Below are positions 19,085 to 36,348 of a stretch of 64,000 nt of DNA, piece by piece. The first letter of the stretch is position 1; each line of letters starts with the position of its first letter. Made by a program: the position numbers and the translations under genes. The notes beneath the pieces are model-generated. The model was not told the DNA's origin, made no database searches, and saw only the letters and a list, made by a program, of their open reading frames with translations. This DNA is from Apibacter mensalis (GTDB lineage Bacteria > Bacteroidota > Bacteroidia > Flavobacteriales > Weeksellaceae), in contig NZ_LIVM01000005.1 of the NCBI RefSeq assembly GCF_001418685.1, forward strand, positions 1 to 64,000. The letters run 5' to 3'.

Positions 19085-19906
19085 ATGAAAGTTATTTTCA
19101 ATCAAAAATGCATTGAAGAAAATCAATTATTAATAAGTTACACTGAAAACGATTACTTTTCCGGTGATTATGTAAATGGTTTCTGTTGGCTGTTTCAAAA
19201 TAAGATTCTTTATTGGGAATGTGCTTATTTTCAATTGATGGCTTCCATGAGAAAAATGAGAATGGATATACCATTATCTTTTACTCCGGAATTATTTGAA
19301 AGCCAAATTAGAATACTCTCCGAAGAATGGGGGATTTCAGAAGGTAGAGTTAAAATTACGGTATATAGAAATTTACAAGATCACCACCCTTCATTTATAA
19401 TAAAATTTTTATCCCATAAAAATTTCTTTGTCAATACTGAAAATGAGATTGATATTTATAAGGAAATTTTTATTTATCCTAATTTATTGTCCGAATTATT
19501 AATTTTTCATCCTATTAATAGTATAGCTAAACAATACTCGAAAGAAAATGGTTTACAAGACGTTATGTTGCTAAATAATGAAAAAAGAATCGCAAGATCT
19601 GTTTTAGGTAATATATTTTTAATACGAGACAATATGATAGTTACCCCTCCAACAACAGAGGGTGCAACCCTATCCGTTTTAAAGAAAAATTATATTGTTT
19701 TTTTACGAGAAAAAACAAATTACATTTATAAAGAAGAGCCCATATCTCCTTTCGAAACTCAATTTGCTGACGAATTTTTTATCCTTAGTGATGAAAATGG
19801 AATAATGCCCATTAACCAATTTAGAAAAAAATCTTTTAAGAAAGATAAAACAAGTTTATTGACAAAAAAATTTATTGGCTATTCCTTAGAGCAAAACCCT
19901 ATATAA
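19085..19906 (+). CDS. aminotransferase class IV-fold protein, probably non-catalytic
   Basis: The 273-residue protein aligns by eye with class IV PLP aminotransferases (BCAT/PabC type): an N-terminal FxG-type start, a central YRNLQD, and NSIAKQYSKENGLQDVMLLN followed by LGNIFLI. At the place of the Schiff-base lysine (before the conserved Asn) there is His142 in FHPINS. The usual Glu before the GSNIF motif is Arg171 (ARSVLGNIF), and the late G-x-x-x-R phosphate-binding motif is absent. I infer a degenerate, possibly structural or regulatory, homologue. It follows the START-like gene on the same strand. Confidence 0.7.
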   Translation: MKVIFNQKCIEENQLLISYTENDYFSGDYVNGFCWLFQNKILYWECAYFQLMASMRKMRMDIPLSFTPELFESQIRILSEEWGISEGRVKITVYRNLQDHHPSFIIKFLSHKNFFVNTENEIDIYKEIFIYPNLLSELLIFHPINSIAKQYSKENGLQDVMLLNNEKRIARSVLGNIFLIRDNMIVTPPTTEGATLSVLKKNYIVFLREKTNYIYKEEPISPFETQFADEFFILSDENGIMPINQFRKKSFKKDKTSLLTKKFIGYSLEQNPI

Positions 19907-19923
19907 CTAATATAATTATAAAA

Positions 19924-20046
19924 AGAAAAAAGGTCGCATAAGCGACCTCAAACTAAAACCACAAAAAAATGAGAAAGCGATTACATTTAAGTAATCATGT
20001 CTTGAAAGATCATTAAAAATCTTTTTAAAGATATCTCTTACTTTCT
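19924..20046 (-). ncRNA. candidate structured small RNA
   Basis: On the minus strand a perfect -7 box (20052-20059) is followed about 110 bases later by a GGTCGC/GCGACC hairpin and a T-run (19924-19948). The RNA between can fold: AGAAAG at its 5' end pairs with CTTTCT (19972-19977), enclosing the hairpins ATCTTT/AAAGAT (20019-20032) and GATTAC/GTAATC (19979-19996). There is no coding frame. A 6S-type or other regulatory RNA is possible, but I cannot assign a family. The methylase gene upstream ends at 20178, so this could also be its long 3' UTR. Confidence 0.55.
19931..19948 (-). terminator. hairpin terminator of the candidate small RNA
   Basis: AGGTCGC/GCGACCT, a perfect 7-bp stem with a 4-base loop. 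Only the minus-strand sense has a T-run after it. Confidence 0.85.
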
Positions 20047-20051
20047 TGTTG

Positions 20052-20059
20052 CAAAAGTA
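20052..20059 (-). promoter_or_regulatory. -7 promoter box upstream of the candidate small RNA
   Basis: TACTTTTG followed by CA on the minus strand, a perfect TAnnTTTG. A TATTGAC stretch lies farther upstream but at about 30-base spacing, too long for a -33 box. Confidence 0.55.
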
Positions 20060-20177
20060 ATCGAAATATAGATCTATAAAGGCTTTTGTCAATAAAATTA
20101 TTTTATAGTGTAAATAGTACGTTTTTAATTGACCCTCAATTTTAAGTAGATAAACGCTCTAAAGTGTAAAATAAAAT

Positions 20178-20879
20178 TTAGGCTTGTATTATGAAAATGG
20201 TGGGTTCTTTATGAAAATTCGTTTTTTTAGATTTCCATTCTTTACAATACAGAGTTATTATAGATTCATTGGGAAGAGTTACGTTAGTAGCAATACATAA
20301 AGATGTTTTTGGATTTAGGTATTTAATTAAATCATCAAATAAAGCTTGATTTCGGTATGGCGTTTCCATAAATATTTGCGAAGAACCCTGATTTCTGCTT
20401 ATTTTTTCAAGATTTAATATAATTTTCTTTCTCTCAGATGAATCTATGGGTAAATATCCATTAAATGCAAATTTTTGGCCATTCAATCCACTAGCAATCA
20501 AGGCCAATATGATAGAGGAAGGCCCATTTATCGGCACCACTCGTATATCATTTCTATGACACCAAGAAACTAAAATGTTACCCGGATCTGCTATGCAAGG
20601 CAATCCTGCTTCAGAAATTAAACCAACATCCTCCCCTTTTTTCAACGGCTGCGAAAGATAATCCAACTCTTCTTCCGTTGTTCTTTTATCTAAAATAGAA
20701 AAACTTAAACCGCTTTGAGGTATTTCCGGACATAAATATTTGACAAATTTTCTTGCCGATTTTTGATTTTCAGCCACAAAAAATTTTATTGTTCTCAATA
20801 ATTCGATTTCTTTCGGGGAAAATATATCTTTAGGTGATGTTTCACCAAGATAGGCAGGAAGTAAATATAAAACAGCCAT
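20178..20879 (-). CDS. tetrapyrrole-methylase-fold SAM methyltransferase, RsmI-like
   Basis: This 233-residue protein has the tetrapyrrole-methylase fold used by RsmI, which 2'-O-methylates C1402 of 16S rRNA. Seen: LYLLPAYLGE at the N-terminus, AENQKSARKFVKYL, the SAM-binding signature GLISEAGLPCIADPGN, INGPSSIILALIASGL and FMETPYRNQALF. It departs from canonical RsmI at the N-terminus (PAYLGE rather than PTPIGNL) and lacks its C-terminal extension. Flavobacteriia often carry both RsmI and this shorter paralogue, so I give no gene symbol. It sits 5 bp after gldG on the same strand. Confidence 0.85.
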   Translation of the reverse strand: MAVLYLLPAYLGETSPKDIFSPKEIELLRTIKFFVAENQKSARKFVKYLCPEIPQSGLSFSILDKRTTEEELDYLSQPLKKGEDVGLISEAGLPCIADPGNILVSWCHRNDIRVVPINGPSSIILALIASGLNGQKFAFNGYLPIDSSERKKIILNLEKISRNQGSSQIFMETPYRNQALFDDLIKYLNPKTSLCIATNVTLPNESIITLYCKEWKSKKTNFHKEPTIFIIQA

Positions 20880-34459: not shown

Positions 34460-34533
34460 GCCGGTATAGCTCAGTTGGCCAGAGCACGTGATTTGTAATC
34501 TCGGGGTCGTGGGTTCGAATCCCTCTACCGGCT
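34460..34533 (+). tRNA. tRNA-Thr (anticodon TGT)
   Basis: The cloverleaf has acceptor GCCGGTA pairing with TACCGGC, a D-arm AGCTCAGTTGG, and a T-arm GGTTCGAAT. The loop TTTGTAA carries TGT. The anticodon stem has one T-T mismatch. CCA is not encoded. It is the first of four tRNAs in tandem. Confidence 0.95.
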
Positions 34534-34542
34534 CGTTTTGAA

Positions 34543-34625
34543 GGGGAGATACTCAAGCGGCCAACGAGGACAGACTGTAAATCTGTTGGTTTTTACCTTC
34601 GGAGGTTCGAATCCTCCTCTCCCCA
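34543..34625 (+). tRNA. tRNA-Tyr (anticodon GTA)
   Basis: The acceptor GGGGAGA pairs with TCTCCCC, and the anticodon loop CTGTAAA carries GTA. A long variable arm is present (class II tRNA, as expected for bacterial Tyr). It lies 9 bases after tRNA-Thr. Confidence 0.95.
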
Positions 34626-34646
34626 CAAAAAAAATAAAAAAAATTT

Positions 34647-34677
34647 TTTGTAATTCAAAAAAAATATTCTACCTTTG
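34647..34677 (+). promoter_or_regulatory. full-consensus internal promoter before tRNA-Gly
   Basis: TTTG at 34647-34650 and TACCTTTG at 34670-34677 with a 19-base spacer, inside the tRNA cluster between tRNA-Tyr and tRNA-Gly. Confidence 0.8.
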
Positions 34678-34708
34678 GATCGAATTACAAAGGTAATCAA
34701 AAAAATAA

Positions 34709-34781
34709 GCGGAAGTAGCTCAGTTGGTAGAGCGTCAGCCTTCCAAGCTGAATGTCGCGAGTTCGACCCTCGTCTTCCGCT
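34709..34781 (+). tRNA. tRNA-Gly (anticodon TCC)
   Basis: The acceptor GCGGAAG pairs with CTTCCGC, the anticodon stem is TCAGC/GCTGA, and the loop CTTCCAA carries TCC. The T-arm has GTTCGAC. CCA is not encoded. Confidence 0.95.
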
Positions 34782-34794
34782 CAATTTTTTTTCA

Positions 34795-34866
34795 GCCGAT
34801 GTAGCTCAGGGGTAGAGCGCTTCCTTGGTAAGGACGAGGTCACGGGTTCAATTCCCGTCATTGGCT
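34795..34866 (+). tRNA. tRNA-Thr (anticodon GGT)
   Basis: The acceptor GCCGATG pairs with CATTGGC (G-T pair included), and the loop TTGGTAA carries GGT. The T-arm has GGTTCAATT. It lies 13 bases after tRNA-Gly and upstream of tuf, a common Bacteroidota order. Confidence 0.94.
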
Positions 34867-34980
34867 CTCATTTATCCAAGCTTACGATCAAAAAAAATAA
34901 GCCTAAACTTTCTTAAAGACATATCAAATATTTTATTACACAATAGTTGTTTATAAAAAAGTATTTATTTTTTATAAGCT

Positions 34981-36275: not shown

Positions 36276-36348
36276 GCGGGTGTAGCTCAGCTGGTAGAGC
36301 AGTGGTCTCCAAAACCAAAGGTCGTGAGTTCGAATCTTTCCGCCCGCG
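36276..36348 (+). tRNA. tRNA-Trp (anticodon CCA)
   Basis: The acceptor GCGGGTG pairs with CGCCCGC, apart from a terminal-pair irregularity, and the loop TCTCCAAAA region carries CCA. The T-arm has GAGTTCGAATC. It sits between tuf and secE, the order usual in many bacteria. Confidence 0.95.

Follow-up and report, generated by a model that had tools for sequence, protein, structure and literature searches.

The intergenic region at positions 19,924 to 20,059 of the window (the whole 64,000-nucleotide stretch of Apibacter mensalis DNA that was analyzed, from contig NZ_LIVM01000005.1) raised the question of whether a noncoding RNA gene is present there and, if so, what its RNA would do. An earlier note, made from the letters alone, had described a -7 box, a pairable AGAAAG and CTTTCT, two perfect small hairpins, and a GC-rich terminator hairpin with a T-run at this position. 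All of these features were found as described. The neighbors that it had named were likewise confirmed, one as a member of the aminotransferase class IV family (PF01063) and the other as an RsmI-like protein of the tetrapyrrole methylase family (PF00590). No ORF longer than 8 codons ends inside 19924-20059. The host genome of the window is 2.33 Mb in size, and eight further Apibacter genomes were compared with it (handles such as G005 denote individual genomes below). The parts of the locus, in order along the minus strand and closing with the convergent gene, are as follows.

20178..20879, minus strand: RsmI-like methyltransferase gene (PF00590), upstream of the putative sRNA gene and on the same strand
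20097..20117, minus strand: upstream element CTATTTACACTATAAAATAAT, its center about 61 nt 5' of the estimated start; possible activator site
20052..20059, minus strand: -7 box TACTTTTG of the Bacteroidota type, read from the sequence
19926..20046, minus strand: putative sRNA gene, ending with the T-run and about 121 nt long if transcription starts, as estimated, at box start + 13 nt
20005..20024, minus strand: hairpin 1 of the 5' domain (AAAGAT...ATCTTT), poorly conserved
19979..19996, minus strand: hairpin GATTAC...GTAATC, directly 5' of the core
19942..19976, minus strand: 35-nt stretch TTTCTCATTTTTTTGTGGTTTTAGTTTGAGGTCGC, which takes in the 5' arm of the terminator; invariant in 8 of 8 alignment rows
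19946..19973, minus strand: 28-nt seed core CTCATTTTTTTGTGGTTTTAGTTTGAGG, identical in 9 of 9 genomes; complementary to mRNA leaders, including some AUG regions
19926..19949, minus strand: intrinsic terminator GAGGTCGC-TTAT-GCGACCTTTTTT, its stem retained in 8 of 8 aligned sequences
19085..19906, plus strand: aminotransferase class IV family gene (PF01063), convergent

Read along the minus strand from TACTTTTG, the sequence presents AGAAAGTAAGAG, the two small perfect hairpins, CTTTCTCATTTTTTTGTGGTTTTAGTTTGAG, and then the GC hairpin with its T-run. The predicted fold of the sRNA region has an energy of -33.2 kcal/mol, compared with -20 +/- 3.0 for shuffled sequences (z = -4.34; 0 of 200 shuffles were as good). 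Taken by itself, the -7 box barely exceeds chance expectation: the window contains 29 TANNTTTGC sites against 17.7 expected, and 1 of 100 shuffles reaches as many. Elsewhere in the window there is an ordinary tRNA cluster at 34460-34867 (Thr, Tyr, Gly, Thr), with a Trp tRNA at 36276.

A DNA search recovered the locus in all nine genomes of the genus. In each of them CTCATTTTTTTGTGGTTTTAGTTTGAGG is unchanged, flanked by a terminator on its 3' side and a TANNTTTG box on its 5' side, and the core is present as one copy per genome. This conservation, with a 28-nt core identical throughout, is the decisive evidence for judging the locus real, and on sequence grounds it strongly supports the assignment of a gene. 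The earlier note had looked to relatives both for conservation and for compensatory changes; the former was borne out and the latter was not. In an alignment of eight distinct sequences (G008 was omitted as a near-duplicate of G000), 0 of the 12 consensus pairs called by RNAalifold were changed on both sides. The closing helix that had been drawn between AGAAAG and CTTTCT therefore finds no support as a conserved feature, and it would in any case join the diverging 5' end to the invariant 3' segment. The invariant block extends over 35 nt in this alignment, and the 5' domain ranges from about 40 to 80 nt among genomes and can hardly be aligned. A hairpin just 5' of the core is predicted in all nine sequences, with stems that differ and without formal covariation. 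In single-sequence folds, the mean unpaired probability is 0.65-0.86 for the middle 12 nt of the core (UGGUUUUAGUUU) and 0.44-0.71 for its first 12 nt; its last four nt sit in the terminator stem. An invariant core beside a diverging 5' half is the pattern of a seed rather than that of a structured RNA.

The region upstream of the -7 box holds a further conserved feature. The first 18 nt of the upstream element, CTATTTACACTATAAAAT (0-3 mismatches), lie 58-59 nt before a TANNTTTG box in eight of the nine genomes, a constancy of spacing that points to a possible activator site near -61. In the ninth, G003, the element is degenerate: it has 6 mismatches, lies at 58 nt, and is no better than nearby places. 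The element of G005 precedes a second, distal -7 box, so that the transcript in this genome may be longer or have two starts. We note several other particulars of G005. Its sRNA gene (L009/L350, contig C52) has been relocated and is not beside rsmI, and a nearby gene is one that we take to be thyA; the upstream element is retained even though the gene has moved; and more than 200 nt, containing a short possible ORF and the second -7 box, separate the element and distal box from the core. Across the genus the element occurs at 22 places, 20 of which were read. Seven of these are sRNA genes; among the other 13, a TANNTTTG box lies no more than about 140 nt away in only two cases (52 and 57 nt), too few for defining a regulon. 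No further copy with up to 3 mismatches was found in 464 kb of the own genome.

Other readings of the locus itself deserve consideration beside that of an independent sRNA gene. In eight of the nine genomes the sRNA sequence lies 3' of rsmI and reads in the same direction, so that it could be the terminator or 3' UTR of the rsmI-like mRNA, with no promoter of its own. We consider this very improbable, given that every genome has a -7 box and that eight of the nine keep the upstream element at a constant distance from such a box; the location of the G005 copy, which does not follow rsmI, likewise argues against a mere rsmI tail. A slimmer chance still attaches to a leader on the plus strand with a short peptide beginning ATGAGAAAG. 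Such a leader is suggested by AAACTAAAACCACAAAAAAATGAGAAAG, which resembles a translation start, yet no -7 box was seen just before AAACTAAAACCACAAAAAAATGAGAAAG on that strand, the hairpin is followed by a T-run on the minus strand only, and the sequence that comes after it differs in length from species to species. A 6S-type RNA, which would bind RNA polymerase and which the earlier note had offered as one hypothesis for the locus, has next to no likelihood in our estimate. Only size and hairpins speak for it, and conservation is highest in a largely linear seed rather than in a long bulged hairpin. Neither 6S-Flavo (RF01685) nor Bacteroidales-1 (RF01693) gave a covariance-model match to the locus in the tests of the locus or in the genome-wide Rfam tests, and 6S-Flavo was absent even from the permissive list of matches. 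A likely 6S RNA of the own genome is instead located on another contig (L013, G000:C3:125300-125438, minus strand), where it lies downstream of a gene read as zapA. It scores 47.2 bits with 6S-Flavo and 44.6 bits with Bacteroidales-1, and both Rfam models miss it because these scores are below the gathering cut-offs of 85 and 60. Very probably, the locus under study is a small-RNA gene in its own right, carried by the genus Apibacter (Weeksellaceae), and the earlier note's proposal to that effect gains from the comparison: the predicted gene has its own -7 box and terminator, occurs in all nine Apibacter genomes, and in G005 stands away from rsmI.

Searches for known relatives and for occurrences outside the genus bear on how widely such a gene may be distributed. 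No Rfam family reached its gathering score at the locus, Spot 42 included, in agreement with the earlier note, which could name no family. The loci of the eight relatives matched no Rfam family at E values up to 0.5. PyrG leader, AniS, and some further models appeared in the permissive list, but far below their gathering scores, and were taken as chance. When the core pattern was searched with up to 2 mismatches in 120 genomes of the family, all 9 genus members matched. Outside the genus, 7 of 111 genomes gave one 2-mismatch match each, against 15 of 111 for the reversed control, and reading of the sequence after these 7 matches revealed no terminator. Of the stretches downstream of rsmI, which were scanned in 80 of 80 loci, the conserved stretch is complete in three, all within the genus (L014, L016, and L017). 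L017 belongs to Apibacter adventoris and is among the contigs with the closest rsmI; L015, with an equally close rsmI (72%), is without the stretch. In the other 77 loci the longest word in common with the core is 12 nt, which equals the longest found in 160 control stretches. Words of at least 10 nt are commoner downstream of rsmI (15 of 77) than in the controls (10 of 160), which were taken from position ~1000-1800 of the loci and are mostly other genes, and T-rich intergenic composition may be the cause of this excess. As far as was searched, the gene appears to be restricted to Apibacter.

What, then, would the core pair with? The initial search returned a 27-nt match outside the locus (L011), in the leader of a sugar kinase gene, with 21 nt complementary to the core; more generally, the reverse complement of the seed, AAACUAAAACCACAAAAA, sits just 5' of the start codons of carbon-catabolism genes. 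An 18-mer complementary to the core, allowed up to 2 mismatches, gave 54 matches in the nine genomes, 9 of which are the sRNA genes. For 18 of the 45 non-sRNA matches, an ORF of at least 70 aa starts with an ATG that lies 5-45 nt from the first base of the match, a count that includes L141 of G002, a doubtful start of a gene that is presumably LysM-like. The reversed control pattern, with 33 matches found and 30 examined as loci, followed the same ATG rule in 2 of 30 cases (Fisher p = 0.001), and a stricter ATG rule gave 15 of 45 against 1 of 30 (p = 0.0013); the control is skewed in that G005 supplies 10 of its 33 matches but 3 of the 54 test matches. In G003 and G005 themselves, 0 of 1 and 0 of 2 matches stand before an ATG. 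When the opposite orientation was considered, 1 of the 45 matches qualified, and an orientation bias of 18 to 1 points to RNA pairing rather than to a DNA operator. The candidate targets, some of whose orthologues were named by likeness to a scanned orthologue, are listed here with the genomes concerned.

FGGY sugar kinase: G000, G008, and G004
Presumed outer-membrane protein: G000, G008, and G002
Ribulokinase: G004, G008, and G007
Propionate/acetate--CoA ligase: G006 and G001
Glycerol kinase and an aquaporin-like channel: G002
Succinate--CoA ligase beta and acyl-CoA dehydrogenase: G006
Amino-acid permease: G007
Unnamed protein L119: G004, no family match

When the own genome was searched less strictly, with a 15-mer and up to 2 mismatches, the glycerol kinase gene (glpK) and the gene for ribose-5-phosphate isomerase B (rpiB) were added. 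Because this search yielded no excess (27 matches, including the sRNA gene, against 32 for the control), the own-genome assignments of glpK and rpiB are based on position and, for glpK, on orthologues as well. An exact 11-mer search returned, beyond the places already found with the 18-mer, only matches that were in coding sequence or wrongly positioned.

Several of the target families warrant comment. The name of the presumed outer-membrane protein is an impression from its sequence: two full-length orthologues had no Pfam match, the protein matched no NCBIfam model (first 496 residues) and no solved structure, and its fold prediction had a pLDDT of 26. For the FGGY kinase, a 272-residue piece was below every NCBIfam cut-off. 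The FGGY kinase leaders (L150-L161) keep a -7 box of the TATATTTG type, and most of them keep CTAAAACC amid an otherwise diverging sequence; in four genomes there is a tandem second FGGY copy without the leader site. The CoA-ligase targets (L180, L181, and L182, in G006, G001, and G005) are open frames of 1,283-1,294 codons, each holding two acetate/propionate--CoA ligase-like stretches in tandem.

Duplex energies provide a further measure of the complementarity. The background consisted of 344 leaders (ORFs of at least 100 codons, first ATG), taken from the window together with 400 kb sampled from the own genome. The best duplex of the core on these leaders has a mean of -11.4 kcal/mol (sd 2.7), and 2 of the 344 reach -20; the FGGY kinase leader ranks lowest of all, at -27.1 kcal/mol. 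On 12 target leaders, which had been picked as good matches, the real core gives -24.1, compared with -12.3 +/- 1.3 for dinucleotide-shuffled cores (best -16.4; 0 of 200 as low). Net energies after opening costs range from -19.2 to -0.8 for 13 pairs, as absolute values that were not ranked against background; 12 of the 13 stay at or below -5.7, and the own-genome rpiB, at -0.8, is nearly neutral. The predicted paired region spans about -33 to +6 around the start codon.

Orthologue tests were made on leaders that had not been picked by pattern, with values expressed as background fractions and with p values that are not independent, because the species are related. Five unselected FGGY kinase leaders gave 0.029, 0.12, 0.014, 0.39, and 0.009 (combined p = 0.0006), two of the five being without a strong site (G001, 0.12; G006, 0.39), and the tandem FGGY paralogue gave no group signal in four genomes (p = 0.15). 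The presumed outer-membrane protein of G004 gave 0.012, and a second paralogue of this protein gave a combined value of 0.0002 in six genomes, with one clear miss (G002, 0.93). The CoA ligase of G005 was borderline, at 0.06. Leaders of glpK in six genomes of the genus had fractions of 0.003-0.058, two of the six having been met through patterns and G000, G004, and G008 being near relatives; glpK of G001 and G003 alone gave a combined 0.0013. Outside the genus, where 45 family genomes yielded four glpK orthologues, the three readable leaders gave 0.41-0.53. We regard the predicted pairing to the named leaders as well supported by these comparisons.

We believe, with a probability of roughly 0.77, that the locus encodes a trans-acting base-pairing sRNA that represses the translation start of alternative-carbon mRNAs. 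The features by which trans-acting sRNAs are generally recognized can be read in the sequence, namely an own promoter with an intrinsic terminator and a conserved seed complementary to several mRNA start sites. In the proposed mechanism, an sRNA of about 120 nt would be transcribed from its own minus-strand promoter, and its function would reside in the long, largely unpaired 28-nt seed that runs into the terminator. The predicted partner of this seed is the A-rich leader directly 5' of the start codon, with the start codon itself included in some targets. The mRNAs concerned, which serve to take up and degrade alternative carbon sources, would be those for the FGGY sugar kinase, glycerol kinase, ribulokinase, propionate/acetate--CoA ligase, the presumed outer-membrane protein, and probably more, and pairing would mask the site of ribosome loading. 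Repression is likely because the predicted pairing covers that site, and it is the most likely outcome by analogy with GibS and FopS, which pair at such places. The targets would likely be repressed while a preferred carbon source is present, and we infer that the carbon signal acts by way of the upstream element.

Two alternatives accept the shared motif and differ in what it does. The same leaders could be paired and then activated or protected, for example from decay, so that the RNA would promote carbon use; the evidence for pairing is common to both readings, and sequence by itself leaves the sign of regulation unfixed. The sites, however, fall within the last 33 nt or so ahead of the ATG or overlap it, a region in which GibS and FopS repress according to the available portions of their reports (PMC7366714, PMC11697453), and we therefore consider activation unlikely. 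Decidedly less probable is a DNA operator, bound by one transcription factor in the leaders and at the sRNA locus alike, with no RNA pairing. In the FGGY kinase leaders the motif does stand between the promoter and the ATG, a possible place for an operator, but the strong orientation bias (18 versus 1) speaks against it, and the conserved block runs through CTCAT into the terminator arm, inside the predicted transcript.

A repressing sRNA with such targets has parallels in other bacteria. Spot 42 of the enterobacteria and vibrios acts as a single sRNA on a set of genes for uptake and catabolism of secondary carbon sources, and the identities of the predicted Apibacter targets would fit a regulon of this kind. 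Spot 42 differs in phylum, seed, and size, and its Rfam model has no match at the locus. Closer in phylum is GibS of Bacteroides thetaiotaomicron, which, in the available text of its report, is an intergenic sRNA with hairpins, an intrinsic terminator, and an extended, conserved, single-stranded seed for pairing around the start codons of metabolic mRNAs, and which its authors place among sRNAs possibly involved in carbon catabolite repression (PMC7366714). The same text places the GibS seed in the 5' portion and gives two proven direct targets (PMC7366714). Its authors also raise the possibility that extended seeds are required by some sRNAs of B. thetaiotaomicron (PMC7366714), a suggestion that fits the 28-nt core. 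FopS, as far as its account was available, represses several glycan-utilization mRNAs by pairing near the start codon, and FopS-10 blocks translation in vitro (PMC11697453); the presumed outer-membrane protein among the Apibacter targets is a further likeness to it. In that account FopS is a 14-copy family of Bacteroides with a 5' seed and mostly SusC-type targets (PMC11697453), whereas the Apibacter genomes have one copy of the core each, and the predicted targets are mostly sugar kinases and catabolic enzymes. In contrast to both GibS and FopS, the Apibacter seed adjoins the terminator in the 3' part of the RNA (the start being estimated), and the 5' part can diverge freely. No evidence of homology to GibS was found in a comparison by description only. 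The FopS structure has been deposited in Rfam according to its paper, in the part available (PMC11697453); our Rfam scans gave no match to GibS or FopS, and the copy of Rfam that was searched may not contain FopS.

Within the Flavobacteriia, Rfp18 of Flavobacterium psychrophilum is also a conserved intergenic sRNA with one region predicted to pair with several mRNAs; it is conserved in Flavobacterium, and two protease mRNAs fall on its deletion, as stated in the available part of its report (PMC9723704). By that description, the only basis on which it was compared, it differs in pairing through its third stem-loop and in having metalloproteases and an adhesin as targets (PMC9723704). The titles and abstract openings searched on small RNAs and transcriptomes of Apibacter and on sRNAs of Bacteroidetes, Flavobacteriia, and Weeksellaceae contained no account of this RNA, and the putative sRNA is, as far as these searches reach, previously undescribed. 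In the portions of the literature covered, Bacteroides and Flavobacterium are the sources of those trans-acting Bacteroidota sRNAs for which targets have been described.

The most far-reaching reading is that this one sRNA serves as the carbon-source switch of the genus, a post-transcriptional hub of catabolite repression with a dedicated activator site, and we put its chances somewhat short of even. If it is true, catabolic leaders that otherwise diverge would share an address of 10-20 nt that mirrors a frozen seed and in some cases includes the AUG, and the activator site 58-59 nt before the -7 box would drive the hub. Translation in the Bacteroidota generally starts without Shine-Dalgarno pairing, and these bacteria are usually without Hfq. 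The locus offers a ready list of candidate targets, a precise predicted pairing site, and nine genomes to compare. It would thus make testable how a symbiont without Shine-Dalgarno starts ranks its carbon sources post-transcriptionally, and in what way the leaders of mRNAs adapt in evolution to an unchanging seed.
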